Shown here: in pieces, positions 3,046-9,129 of the stretch
Numbering within the stretch: the stretch's first letter is position 1
Layout of the letters: the number at the start of each line of letters is the position of its first letter
Assembly (NCBI GenBank): GCA_019694655.1
Contig: JAIBBN010000008.1
Location: 1-64,000 of the forward strand
Length of the DNA stretch: 64,000 bases
Reading direction: 5' to 3'
Source: Leptospirales bacterium
GTDB lineage: Bacteria; Spirochaetota; Leptospiria; Leptospirales; Leptonemataceae
Notes under the pieces: model-generated
Told to the model about the DNA's origin: nothing
What the model saw: the letters and a program-made list of their open reading frames with translations, nothing else
Databases searched by the model: none
Translations under genes and position numbers: made by a program

Positions 3046-5406
3046 TTATTGCGCCAGCGATCGCACAAAATCTTCCTGCAGGCGATTCTCAACGGCGCGA
3101 CGCGATCGTGAATTTCGAACGCATTCAATCGCCGCTTCCGCCTGCAAACCGCCCTTCACCAAAAGGTAGCTTGCCGCTACCAGACCGCTGCGGCCAACGC
3201 CTCCAACGCAATGCACCAGCGCCGATCGACCGGCGCGCAGCTTCCGATCAAGCTCATCCAGTTCGATCAGCAGCGCATCGCGCCGCGGCGCGCCTTGATC
3301 CGGAATGGGAAAGTAGCGGACCGCAATTCCGGCCCGGGCATAGGCCTCCTTGAGTTCCAGGACTCCATATCGCTCAAATTCATCCTCCGTCAACAGGCAG
3401 AGAACGTCGCTGTATCCGGCCTGAAGGACGGCGGCCAGATCCAGCTGCAAATTGCGCATGCGATCCTTGCGCCCCGGCAGCAAGGTCAGACCCAGCCGTC
3501 CCGGCGGCGCGCCGGCCGGCGCCGGCAACGGAATCTCGTCGATGCGCAATGCCCGTGCAAAGCGCAGCGAATCGCGAAGACGAGCTGCGGCGATGCAGCC
3601 AGCGTAGAGCGCCAGTTTCTTCTGCCACTCATTGCATTCGTCAAAGGAGAGCGTGTGCATGGCATAGCGAACTACGCCGACAAAAAGCTGATAGGGATCG
3701 CGGTCCGCTTCAATCAGCGCCGGGTAGTAGGATCGCAGCCGGGCTGCCATGCGGTAGGCCCGGCGCAGTTGCGGAAGCTTAAAACGCTGGTCGAGAGCGG
3801 GGTCAGGCGGCGCGCCAAGATCCTCTGTGTCCAGCAGGGCATGAACCACATCCACGCCAGCGCGCAATGCATCCGGTCCGTCCAGGGGCGTAAAAATATA
3901 GAGCAGATCGTTCTCCAGTTTGATCAAATCCTTCAGGATGTGGCCGCGATGGGTGTGAAAGAAGTCAATCAGCCAGACATTTTGAGAGGCATCGACCAGG
4001 ATGTTAGCGCCGTTCAAATCGCCATGCAAGTACGATGTAAAATGCGGAGCGGCATAAGATTCCTTGAGTTCCGGCAAGTCGCGCTCATAGAACAGGCAGA
4101 CATTCGGCGCCTGCAGGCCAGGCAGAATCTCCAGTTCCTCGCTGCTGGCCGGCTCGCCAAGTAGCGCTTCGACGCGACGTCGCACGCCAGGGGCATAGCG
4201 CTCCGAAAAATCGTAATATTGAAGCAAGTTTAAGCTTTCACGGCTGCGCGCATCGTAGAATCGCCCCAACTGTCGCAAGAAGACGGTATCGAAAACTTCA
4301 AAGACCGGCAGATCTTCATTCGTGTCGCTATACAGCTTTTGCAGGGTGCGCACATCGCCATCCAGCATGCCAGCGTAACGGTACTTGATTGCGCCGCGAT
4401 CTTCCAGCTCCGCAAAGTCGACGATCGACGGGGCGCTGTTGCCCAGCACTTCCTGCACTCGTTCGAAGGCCGTCCGCTCCCCGGCGATGGGATCGCGCGC
4501 GCCGATCTTGATAACGTAGGGCGCCTGCTTGTGACCAAAGCGATCGGTGGCTCGCGCTTTCAGCACAACATTTCCAGAAAATCCGCCGTCCAGTCGACGC
4601 AACTGCGCCCCCGCGCTTTCTCGGAACAGGTAGAGCAGAATTTGCTGGTCTGCCGACGCGACGCCATCGCCGTTTTCAAACTCGAGTCGGGAAACGTCAA
4701 GCCGAGCGCTGGAACTCCGGCGCTGCAACGCTGGCGCCGTCCCGGCCAGCCATTCTGTAAACGCGGCCACTGAGGGAAAGAGCTGCAGGCCAAGAATGCT
4801 GCGCAATTGTTCCAGCGCCACAAAATGCATGGAACGCGAGGAGGAGGCGCAAAGCGCACTGCAAAGACCAATCTCATAATCTGGATAACGAGTGGCCAGA
4901 TCGTAAGCCAAAAAGGTAATTTTGGCTTCGGTCCAGACGCCCATCAGCCCGACCCGTCGACGTCCGTTATAGTTTTTCAAGACCTCATCGAGGTCGGTAT
5001 CAATGAAGTCGTTCAATCCGCTGGCATCAATGATGTGGTGCGCACGATCGTTGCGCATCGCGGAGCGAAATACAAAGTCTGCGCCTTCAGTGTTCCGCAA
5101 ACAATGCTGGCCAAACTGCTGCAGATGCTCCCGTTGTGCCGGCGCGTCAGGGTCATGCCAATCGCGAATGTGAATCAGGGCCAACTGATCGGCCGGGGTC
5201 TGGTAGGCCCAGTCGATTACGCTCTGTACCGCTCCCTCCTCGACGCGCTCGCCGAGCAGGCGCATCGCTTCATCGTAGCCAACATGAAGCTGATTGGGCA
5301 GCGCATCGAAGCGCCCGATGGGTTTGACGAAATCATTCTGGAGGCATTGCGTAATCAATAGCGAGGGCATGCCATAAGACCTGGGCGCCGAGGCCAGCGC
5401 GGGCAA
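3046..5406 (-). CDS. Three-module protein: degenerate isochorismatase fold, kinase-like domain, dual-specificity phosphatase
   Basis: 786 residues; the ATG at 5370 (Met13) may be the true start because the first fold begins there. Residues 13-222 have the cysteine-hydrolase/isochorismatase pattern (LQNDF at 22-26, GVWTE at 156-160), but the positions of the catalytic Asp, Lys and Cys appear to be Cys21, Ala128 and Lys162, so this module is probably inactive. Residues 270-600 look like a phosphotransferase of the aminoglycoside-kinase type: a Gly-rich loop (GGFSGN, 274-279), a likely ATP lysine K300, HGDLNGAN at 461-468 with D463, and the metal-binding D481 in LIDF. Residues 636-786 are a dual-specificity phosphatase with the P-loop HCVGGVGRSG (C733, R739) and general acid D703. 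The combination suggests a sensor that both adds and removes phosphate; the substrate is unknown. Confidence 0.8.
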   Translation of the reverse strand: MPALASAPRSYGMPSLLITQCLQNDFVKPIGRFDALPNQLHVGYDEAMRLLGERVEEGAVQSVIDWAYQTPADQLALIHIRDWHDPDAPAQREHLQQFGQHCLRNTEGADFVFRSAMRNDRAHHIIDASGLNDFIDTDLDEVLKNYNGRRRVGLMGVWTEAKITFLAYDLATRYPDYEIGLCSALCASSSRSMHFVALEQLRSILGLQLFPSVAAFTEWLAGTAPALQRRSSSARLDVSRLEFENGDGVASADQQILLYLFRESAGAQLRRLDGGFSGNVVLKARATDRFGHKQAPYVIKIGARDPIAGERTAFERVQEVLGNSAPSIVDFAELEDRGAIKYRYAGMLDGDVRTLQKLYSDTNEDLPVFEVFDTVFLRQLGRFYDARSRESLNLLQYYDFSERYAPGVRRRVEALLGEPASSEELEILPGLQAPNVCLFYERDLPELKESYAAPHFTSYLHGDLNGANILVDASQNVWLIDFFHTHRGHILKDLIKLENDLLYIFTPLDGPDALRAGVDVVHALLDTEDLGAPPDPALDQRFKLPQLRRAYRMAARLRSYYPALIEADRDPYQLFVGVVRYAMHTLSFDECNEWQKKLALYAGCIAAARLRDSLRFARALRIDEIPLPAPAGAPPGRLGLTLLPGRKDRMRNLQLDLAAVLQAGYSDVLCLLTEDEFERYGVLELKEAYARAGIAVRYFPIPDQGAPRRDALLIELDELDRKLRAGRSALVHCVGGVGRSGLVAASYLLVKGGLQAEAAIECVRNSRSRRAVENRLQEDFVRSLAQ

Positions 5407-6614: not shown

Positions 6615-7142
6615 TTGGAATCGCTCAGCAGTCTCGTCAACAACAGCACGCTCAGCGCCGTCGTCTGGGCCAGCGCCGGCATCGCCCTGGTCATCGCTGA
6701 ATTTTTCGTACCCGGGGCGATCTGTGTATTTCTGGGACTGGGCGCGCTATTGACCGGAGGCTTCACCTATCTGGGCGCCCTGAACAGCCTTACGTCGCAG
6801 TTTGTATTCTGGGTATTCTCTTCGCTGGTCTTGATCTTGATTCTCCGCGCCAGAGTTACACGCTGGTTTCCAGCGCTGGAACGCGACGATAGCCGGGCTG
6901 AGAATGACGAAATTGCCGGCCGCCTGGTGGAAGTCCTGGAAGATATTGCGCCAGGCGAAAGCGAAGGACGCGTGCGCTTTCAGGGCGCCAGCTGGAATGC
7001 CCGCAGCGAGAAAGATCTGCTGCGACGCGGCGAGCAGGCGCGAATTCTGAGACGCGACAATCTATGGCTGGTTGTCGAAGCAAGCGACGAAACGCCGCCA
7101 CAAACGAGTTCTGAGCAACGCAGCCCATCCCAAAACGCCTGA
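6615..7142 (+). CDS. NfeD-family membrane protein
   Basis: 175 residues from a TTG preceded by CGGGG. Three membrane segments occupy roughly residues 12-85 (AVVWASAGIALVIAEFFVPG, then LGLGALLTGGFTYLGA, then FVFWVFSSLVLILIL). After a charged linker comes a small OB-fold at about 105-158 (GRLVEVLEDIAPGESEGRVR and WLVVEA). This is the short NfeD architecture without the serine-protease domain. NfeD proteins are regularly encoded next to stomatin/SPFH proteins and form membrane microdomain complexes with them. Two SPFH genes follow directly here, which strongly supports the call. Confidence 0.9.
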   Translation: MESLSSLVNNSTLSAVVWASAGIALVIAEFFVPGAICVFLGLGALLTGGFTYLGALNSLTSQFVFWVFSSLVLILILRARVTRWFPALERDDSRAENDEIAGRLVEVLEDIAPGESEGRVRFQGASWNARSEKDLLRRGEQARILRRDNLWLVVEASDETPPQTSSEQRSPSQNA

Positions 7143-7257
7143 ACGCCGAAAGATCGGAGCGCATCTTTTTTAGTTGCTGCCAGCAGCCTCGGGCCTGCAT
7201 CCTGCCGGCCTGCTCCGCGCCCCTCGGGACGGAGACTTCCCGAGTTCGGAGGGATTC

Positions 7258-8175
7258 ATGCCTTTTTTGAGCGCATTGATCTTGATCCTGTTGATCATCT
7301 TTATCCGTCGCACCTTCCGCGTGGTGCCCAATCAGGCGGCCTTCATCAAGGAGCGGCTTGGCAAGTTCAGCGGCGTTCTTGGGCCTGGTTTTCACTTTCT
7401 GGTGCCAGTCATTGACCGCGTCGCCTATCGTCACACGCTCAAAGAGCAGGTTGCTGATGTGGCAGCGCAGATCTGTATCACTCGCGACAACGTCCAGGTG
7501 GAAGTGGATGGCATTCTTTACTTACGCGTCCTGGATCCGGAACGCGCCTCCTACGGAATTCAGGACTACGGCTTCGCCGCCATGCAGCTGGCTCAGACCA
7601 GCATGCGTTCCGAGATCGGCAAGCTGGACCTCGACATGACATTCAAAGAACGGGAAAAGATCAATGATGCAGTGGTCAAAGCAGTAGACCACGCCAGCGA
7701 ACACTGGGGAATCAAAGTTACGCGTTATGAAATCAAAAACATCGTTCCGCCGCCATCGATTCTGAACTCCATGGAGCAGCAGATGAAGGCCGAACGTGAA
7801 AAGCGCGCCGACATTCTGCAATCCGAAGGCGAACGCGCCGCACTGATCAATCAATCGCAAGGCGAAAAACAGGAAGAAATCAACGTCTCCGAAGGCGAAA
7901 AGCAGAAACGGATCAATGAAGCCGAAGGCCGCGCCAAGGAGATCGAGCTGGTAGCCGATGCGACGGCCGAGGCGCTGCGCACTGTTGCCCAATCGATCAA
8001 CGCGGCAGGCGGTCGCGAAGCGGTACAGCTGCGTATTGCACAGGAGTTTATCCGCAAATTTGGCGAAGTTGTGGAGCAGTCGCGCACGACCGTCGTACCG
8101 CTTTCCGTGGCCAATATTCAGGGCGTCTTCGAGGGCGTCTCCAAGACCATGGCTGGAATCAAGAAGCAGGACTGA
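7258..8175 (+). CDS. SPFH/band 7 (stomatin-like) protein 1
   Basis: 305 residues. The ATG at 7258 has GGAGGG a few bases upstream, whereas the longer frame from 7174 would put 28 unlikely residues before the membrane anchor. Residues 2-18 are a single N-terminal membrane segment (LSALILILLIIFI). The band 7 domain follows (VPNQAAFIKERLGKF, TRDNVQVEVDGILYLRV), and then a long coiled coil from about 180 to 245 with a repeating S-E/Q-G-E-K pattern every 10-12 residues. Stomatin-like proteins oligomerise on the membrane and scaffold proteases and other enzymes. It sits between the NfeD gene and its own paralogue. An inverted repeat, CTCGGG/CCCGAG (7223-7244), lies just upstream of the ribosome-binding site. 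Confidence 0.92.
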   Translation: MPFLSALILILLIIFIRRTFRVVPNQAAFIKERLGKFSGVLGPGFHFLVPVIDRVAYRHTLKEQVADVAAQICITRDNVQVEVDGILYLRVLDPERASYGIQDYGFAAMQLAQTSMRSEIGKLDLDMTFKEREKINDAVVKAVDHASEHWGIKVTRYEIKNIVPPPSILNSMEQQMKAEREKRADILQSEGERAALINQSQGEKQEEINVSEGEKQKRINEAEGRAKEIELVADATAEALRTVAQSINAAGGREAVQLRIAQEFIRKFGEVVEQSRTTVVPLSVANIQGVFEGVSKTMAGIKKQD

Positions 8176-8196
8176 GGGCCAAAGGAGTAAGCAATC

Positions 8197-9129
8197 ATGG
8201 GCGATATCTTAAACGTTGGCGCATACATCTTTTACATCTTACTGACTATCTACGTCGCGTTCAAATTTGTGCGGGCGATCCGCATCGTTCCGGCGCAAGA
8301 GGAATACATAGTGGAGCGTCTTGGCAAATACCACAAGACGCTGGGGGCTGGCTTCCATGCCCTGATTCCCTTTCTCGATCTGGTGCGCTATGTTGTCACC
8401 TTGAAGGAAGAGGCCATCGACGTGCCGGCGCAGGTTTGCATTACGCGCGACAACGTGCAGGTCAAGGTAGATGGCATCATCTACATGAAGGTAATGGAAT
8501 CATACAAAGCGGCCTACAATATCACTGATTATCGCTATGCCGTCATTCAGCTGGCTCAGACAACGATGCGCGCCGCATTTGGCGAGCTGGACCTGGACAA
8601 GACCTTCGAGGAACGCTCGCAATTGAATGCCAAGATTGTTGCCGTCGTAGATCAAGCGGCTGCCGATTGGGGCGTCGACATCAAGCGCTACGAGATCCAG
8701 AACATCACACCTTCCAAAGAAGTCCTGCACTCGATGGAAAAGCAGATGACTGCGGAACGCGAAAAGAGAGCCAAAATTGCCATCTCCGAAGGCCAGATGA
8801 CCTCGGTGATCAACCGCTCGGAAGGTTTGAAGCAAGAGTTGATCAACCGTTCCGAAGGCCAGAAGATGAAAATGATCAATGAAGCCGAGGGCAAGGCTTC
8901 CGAGATCAGGGCCGTAGCCAACGCTACTGCCGCAGGCATCCGCAAAATTGCCGAATCGCTGAATGCGGCGGGCGGCGTGGAGGCCATGCAGTTGAGCCTT
9001 TCCGAAGAGTATTTGCGGAAGCTGGGCGGCCTGGCGCGCAAGGAAAATCAGGTCATCCTTCCGATGGACCTCTCCAATATGGATGATGTCCTTGATGGCA
9101 TTCAGCGAATTGGCCCAAAAAAAAACTGA
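8197..9129 (+). CDS. SPFH/band 7 (stomatin-like) protein 2
   Basis: 310 residues with a good ribosome-binding site (AAAGGAG) 9 bases before the ATG. It has the same organisation as the preceding gene and is clearly its paralogue: one membrane segment (AYIFYILLTIYVAF), a band 7 domain (EEYIVERLGKYHKTLGAGFH, TRDNVQVKVDGIIYMKV) and a helical C-terminal half with repeated SEGxK units (residues 205-235). Two non-identical paralogues side by side suggest a hetero-oligomer. The last codons run through nine consecutive A residues and end AAA AAA AAC TGA. The following reading frame is open across this site, so a longer product is possible (see the A-run entry). Confidence 0.92.
   Translation: MGDILNVGAYIFYILLTIYVAFKFVRAIRIVPAQEEYIVERLGKYHKTLGAGFHALIPFLDLVRYVVTLKEEAIDVPAQVCITRDNVQVKVDGIIYMKVMESYKAAYNITDYRYAVIQLAQTTMRAAFGELDLDKTFEERSQLNAKIVAVVDQAAADWGVDIKRYEIQNITPSKEVLHSMEKQMTAEREKRAKIAISEGQMTSVINRSEGLKQELINRSEGQKMKMINEAEGKASEIRAVANATAAGIRKIAESLNAAGGVEAMQLSLSEEYLRKLGGLARKENQVILPMDLSNMDDVLDGIQRIGPKKN
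9117..9125 (+). other. Run of nine A residues at the end of the second SPFH gene, possible frameshift site
   Basis: Nine A residues directly precede the stop codon of the second SPFH gene (CCA AAA AAA AAC TGA). The -1 frame contains no stop from before this run through the TPR-like region to 9452. Either a -1 ribosomal slip or RNA polymerase slippage adding one A would fuse the SPFH protein to the TPR-like segment. A runs of this length are known slippage sites, for example in Thermus dnaX. Whether it is used here is inference. Confidence 0.4.

Follow-up and report, generated by a model that had tools for sequence, protein, structure and literature searches.

What might a bacterium do with a single protein that joins a nicotinamidase-like fold, a kinase and a phosphatase? 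This question is raised by a gene in a 64,000-nucleotide stretch of DNA from a Leptospirales bacterium (assembly GCA_019694655.1, contig JAIBBN010000008.1, positions 1 to 64,000), which is referred to here as the window. Opposing activities on one chain are found in the bifunctional kinase/phosphatases AceK, HPrK/P, and PFK-2/FBPase-2, and are presumed for the window protein. However, the folds are unrelated, and the window protein adds a ligand-binding-like domain. One-chain kinase/phosphatase pairs are few in bacteria, and we know of none that is wired to a converted hydrolase. In the reading that we prefer, and to which we give about an even chance, the gene product is a putative ligand-gated kinase/phosphatase switch, a conserved bifunctional signaling protein.

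Each of the three domain families is known, while their combination, the rewired pocket of the first domain and a stand-alone form in Asgard archaea appear undescribed in the literature searched. The three domain names were not found together in that literature, and a mention elsewhere is possible. The kinase family, TCAD9, is very rarely named in the literature searched and its name is absent from the eLife text. It has been described as associated with vWA-MoxR-VMAP (PMC10910872) and has been linked to work on ternary conflict systems (PMC7159879; PMC10910872).

The Gene and Its Reading Frame

The open reading frame lies on the reverse strand at window positions 3046-5406, ends with TAA (3046-3048) and contains no internal stop codons. 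The frame and location given by an earlier sequence-only reading are real, but the start that it used, TTG 5406, is probably not. That start yields 786 residues, of which the 12 extra ones are unconserved. Conservation in the family begins at about residue 13-15 of the window protein and residues 1-11 have a pLDDT below 50 in the AlphaFold2 model; hence ATG 5370 is the more likely start. The whole gene including its stop codon would then span 3046..5370 on the reverse strand and would probably encode a protein of about 774 aa. Residue numbers given throughout follow the 786-residue reading, and the codons of all named residues were verified in the window DNA.

The Pfam families Isochorismatase, TCAD9 and CDKN3 match the protein in this order, each above its cut-off, and so bear out the proposal that three modules share one chain. 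AlphaFold2 predicts the full chain with a mean pLDDT of 89. The protein thus consists of three domains whose order is fixed and whose folding is predicted with confidence, and its kinase and phosphatase carry full catalytic motifs. A full-length search found a single copy of the gene in the window's own genome.

Distribution of the Family

Matches to the window protein are present in 26 of 61 related genomes, with the window's own genome counted. Most of them span residues 13-785 in a single open frame at 50-59% identity. A pattern scan with one genome per species identified 56 public loci in more than 10 phyla that encode relatives; the phyla were taken from record titles, and many records are metagenome-assembled, so single assignments may be wrong. 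Relatives occur in Spirochaetota, Pseudomonadota, Bacteroidota, Chloroflexota, Planctomycetota, Acidobacteriota, and Nitrospinota, and further in Myxococcota, Verrucomicrobiota, Elusimicrobiota, and others. Most of them contain all three domains, at 42-59% identity, and the search for the architecture elsewhere that had been proposed thus returned the same domain order in many phyla. Seven of the 56 loci encode two-domain forms that lack the phosphatase, and some loci are fragments or frameshifted. The family is rare outside the window's class: with the seed genome counted in each case, it occurs in 3 of the 195 genomes sampled for Myxococcota, 1 of the 251 for Chloroflexota and 1 of the 349 for Pseudomonadota. 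The divergence of the three domains is correlated across the family (0.77-0.83), a pattern that shared descent alone would also yield.

The suspicion that the fusion arose by misassembly or that the gene is decaying found nothing in its favor and has a negligible probability, because the frame has no stop codons and the catalytic residues are invariant. Misassembly or chance is ruled out, as tens of independent assemblies share the architecture. A phage or viral origin was rejected as no relative was found in phage or on viral contigs. A plasmid origin was rejected as well, since plasmid matches cover the phosphatase part only. Assignment to a defense system was likewise dropped, as there was no PADLOC match.

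A Nicotinamidase Fold With a Rewired Active Site

The first domain (residues 13-222; 4741..5370, reverse strand) has a nicotinamidase/isochorismatase fold. Pfam Isochorismatase (PF00857) matches residues 72-203 with 40 bits against a cut-off of 27, and the predicted structure of residues 13-219 aligns to the nicotinamidases 6a8l and 3o90 with Z of about 22 and to 1ilw with Z 20 (VIA-align). The nicotinamidase/pyrazinamidase PncA, a member of PF00857, shares this fold (Z about 22) and the metal and lid motif RDWH...H...HC..GT.GA.F. The window protein differs from PncA in its catalytic triad and in its fusion to a kinase and a phosphatase. Reference positions for the PncA triad and for the metal ligands of M. 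tuberculosis PncA were taken from PMC3025910.

Alignment to ordinary archaeal isochorismatases places Cys21 (codon TGC, 5344..5346, reverse strand) at the position of the catalytic Asp, Ala128 (5023..5025, reverse strand) at that of the catalytic Lys, and Lys162 (codon AAA, 4921..4923, reverse strand) at that of the nucleophilic Cys. The last pairing is seen in 3hb7, where GVWTNVC stands against GVWTEAK, and Ala128 sits where the strand bearing the catalytic Lys ends. The alignments to 3hb7 and to 1ilw/1im5 agree on the triad positions where they cover them. Conservation was counted in an alignment of 62 relatives, with denominators that vary by position. Cys21 is found in 58/60 relatives and Lys162 in 61/62, while residue 128 is Ala (35), Ser (23) or Thr (2) and never Lys. 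The loss of the hydrolase triad, first noticed in the window protein, therefore holds for the whole family. The metal motif (5101..5163, reverse strand) is kept, with Asp82 in 58/61, His84 in 58/61, His94 in 60/61 and His101 in 60/60 relatives, and is followed by an invariant Cys102 (60/60). Two flavobacterial members, which are without the metal-motif Asp and first His, make up most of the exceptions at positions 82 and 84.

The domain had also been called degenerate, a dead enzyme, and this does not suit it. Its mean column entropy is the lowest of the three domains (1.43 bits; 1.64 and 1.87 in the other two). By this measure it is the most conserved domain, with a pocket constrained more strongly than both enzymes, as would be expected for specific recognition and not for a decaying scaffold. 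The metal-ligand positions and the near-invariant Cys21, Cys102 and Lys162 are kept across the family, and an Asgard subfamily keeps most of them. With the triad gone and the pocket more tightly constrained than the kinase and the phosphatase, "rewired" fits better than "degenerate."

The rewired domain exists outside the fusion too. A profile search found stand-alone relatives of 250-300 aa in 6 of 148 genomes from the phylum of a Lokiarchaeota record (E <1e-45). These Asgard proteins keep Asp82, Trp83, His84, His101, Cys102, and Lys162 and lack the triad; position 21 is Ser in five of the six. The family is a clear case of an enzyme fold converted without decay, across many phyla and alone in Asgard archaea. 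All six genes are preceded on the same strand by a gene for a protein of about 800 aa; WD40 repeats were found in the one that was scanned, and the other five are its homologs. The pairs of WD40-type and rewired-domain genes are located at L056:5426-8687, L117:4328-7642, L118:4506-7818, L119:6529-9865, L120:3992-7251, and L121:3224-6550.

The Kinase and Phosphatase Domains

The second domain is a TCAD9/APH-type kinase (residues 263-618; 3553..4620, reverse strand). Pfam TCAD9 (PF19974) matches it in two stretches with 207 bits against a cut-off of 40. PF01636 gives the window protein 20.1 bits, below its cut-off of 23.2, and one relative 45.2 bits. Predicted alone, the domain has a pLDDT of 90.7 and a pTM of 0.86. 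Its fold matches maltokinase, methylthioribose kinase, PsiK, LxmK, and aminoglycoside kinases (APHs) with Z 14-17, and the catalytic residues are shared with these enzymes; the identity to them is 9-17%, and no resistance role is implied. The kinase residues that had been reported as intact are invariant among relatives, with Lys300 in 62/62 and Asp463, Asn468, and Asp481 each in 59/59. The GGxSG loop, Glu315 and the HGDLN..N motif (HGDLNGxN, residues 461-468) are invariant as well. It had been suggested that the protein phosphorylates itself, which the domain does not imply, as the nearest matches to its fold are small-molecule kinases of the APH and sugar/choline types. The modeled fold favors a small-molecule substrate without deciding it.

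The third domain is a dual-specificity phosphatase of the KAP/CDKN3 type (residues 619-786; 3049..3552, reverse strand). Pfam CDKN3 (PF05706) matches residues 638-750 with 63.7 bits against a cut-off of 20.7. Residues 618-786 align to human KAP (1fpz) with Z 25.3 and 31% identity, and the domain shares the fold, the acid Asp and the CX5R loop with human KAP/CDKN3 and with archaeal and bacterial KAP-like dual-specificity phosphatases. Unlike KAP/CDKN3, it is part of a three-domain protein of bacteria, which have no CDK substrate. Its acid Asp703 and the Cys733 of the P-loop HCVGGVGR are present in 51/51 relatives and Arg739 in 50/50, in agreement with the complete active site first described. 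KAP-like phosphatase matches on the plasmids NZ_CP109792.1, NC_011960.1, and NZ_CP020471.1 lie in genes annotated as ADP-ribosylglycohydrolase family.

The phosphatase is absent from seven family members in four phyla, and one more two-domain form, a myxobacterial one, was seen. Most of the phosphatase-less members nest within three-domain members in the tree, so the domain has probably been lost repeatedly; the exception is a long Anaeromyxobacter branch, for which this is unsure. As the other two domains stay intact where the phosphatase is lost, the sensor and the kinase seem to form the core of the protein.

Gene Neighborhoods

The neighbors of the window gene encode an OmpA protein, a BPSS1187-family hydrolase and a protein that matches no family. 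None of the three was found beside any relative examined, and the adjacent hydrolase lipoprotein, once suggested as a partner, loses its support. Elsewhere in the family, 13 loci have a 538-aa-type MoxR gene near the family gene; in 11 of these it lies no more than about 1 kb away on the same strand, and 12 also have a vWA gene. As seven of the 13 are close betaproteobacterial relatives, about five independent lineages remain, plus Leptospirales. The order family gene, MoxR, a gene for about 335 aa, and vWA is found in proteobacteria, Acidobacteriota, and Nitrospinota, and is divergent in one Bacteroidales. A Bat-type MoxR adjoins the family gene in four Leptospirales genomes. The window protein thus resembles the TCAD9 proteins of MoxR-vWA conflict systems in having a clear PF19974 kinase and relatives that adjoin MoxR/vWA genes. 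It differs from them in its fusion to a nicotinamidase-fold domain and a phosphatase, and the MoxR/vWA pair was not found beside the window gene. In the window's genome, the search for a MoxR of the linked type gave a weak match only (E 3e-4).

A gene pair encoding an SPFH protein and a divergent NAD-kinase-like protein adjoins the family gene in one Leptospirales, one betaproteobacterial and one Lysobacterales genome (L129:8011-10251, L025:5053-7099, and L054:366-2372). The nearest solved structure to the NAD-kinase-like protein is NADK2, and it has GQDG where GGDG is expected. The pair overlaps the family gene by 4 bp in one of the three lineages, and the betaproteobacterium has a NUDIX/NrtR-type regulator immediately upstream. 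The pair was not found beside the window gene. At 6615-9129 the window carries, as read by eye, two tandem stomatin/SPFH-like paralogs after an NfeD-like gene. In three genomes (L034, L036, and L051), the family member has an aldehyde dehydrogenase gene downstream of it.

A Putative Ligand-Gated Switch and Its Alternatives

In the proposed switch, the first domain would bind a small ligand; the retained metal site may serve for this, much as nicotinamidases bind the pyridine ring. The domain would also set the balance between kinase and phosphatase; the kinase would phosphorylate a target and the phosphatase would take that phosphate off. Candidate targets are the MoxR/vWA proteins co-encoded in some lineages or a small metabolite. 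The architecture in many phyla, the invariant catalytic residues, the metal motif kept despite the loss of the triad, the conserved pocket and the recurrent MoxR/vWA and SPFH/NAD-kinase-like neighbors make such a switch plausible. Against it, the kinase with its APH-like fold may have a metabolite substrate that has nothing to do with the one the phosphatase acts on, and the conserved pocket could instead be a new active site. The two flavobacterial members with an incomplete metal motif also count against it. Neighborhoods also differ among lineages, and the window has neither recurrent partner. A more specific proposal, which we hold tentatively and at clearly less than even confidence, is that the nicotinamidase fold has turned into a metabolite or redox sensor. 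Its metal site and Cys21-Lys162 pair would capture either a redox state or a ligand (e.g., nicotinamide or an aldehyde) and would directly set the kinase and the opposing phosphatase, in a one-protein switch of an undescribed type.

Three other explanations have to be weighed. The first domain could still be an enzyme with new chemistry, in which Cys21 and Lys162 act as a new catalytic pair next to the metal site and the whole protein is a multi-step metabolic enzyme and not a sensor switch. The two residues are nearly invariant, their positions meet in the canonical triad, and the metal motif and Cys102 are retained. Isochorismatases proper (EntB/PhzD) likewise act without a Cys. On the other hand, the general base of the old type is gone, and the Asgard proteins, mostly Ser21 with Lys162 kept, weaken the case for a Cys nucleophile. 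We consider this explanation unlikely. Still lower in our estimate is a cycle like that of PFK-2/FBPase-2, in which kinase and phosphatase share one small molecule and this molecule or a precursor is bound by the first domain, with the NAD-kinase-like neighbor hinting at a nicotinamide or ADP-ribose metabolite. The likeness to small-molecule kinases, the SPFH/NADK2-like pair in three lineages with its 4-bp overlap in one and its NrtR-type regulator in another, and the ADP-ribosylglycohydrolase annotation of the plasmid-borne KAP-like domains would agree with it. However, KAP, the nearest relative of the phosphatase, acts on phosphoproteins, and LxmK, one of the kinase matches, works in a peptide-modifying complex. 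The NAD-kinase-like neighbor is absent in most members and, with its GQDG, may not be a NAD kinase.

The Pfam name of the kinase suggests instead that the protein serves as third component in a ternary conflict system of the MoxR-vWA type whose chaperone pair was lost or unlinked in the window's lineage. The recurrent gene order in several lineages, the Bat-type MoxR of some Leptospirales and the published association of TCAD9 with vWA-MoxR-VMAP (PMC10910872) speak for such a role. Yet the pair is absent near most members within the sequence examined, the window's genome has only the weak MoxR match, and the linked genes that were scanned have no Pfam VMAP or iSTAND match. With neither a PADLOC match nor relatives in phages or viruses, we regard this role as improbable, the least probable of the three.

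With this family, the poorly understood TCAD9 domain gains a concrete architecture. Other spirochaete TCAD9 proteins bear TPR repeats or AAA_22 domains (L139:420-3158, L140:3237-7829, and L141:1-3888).
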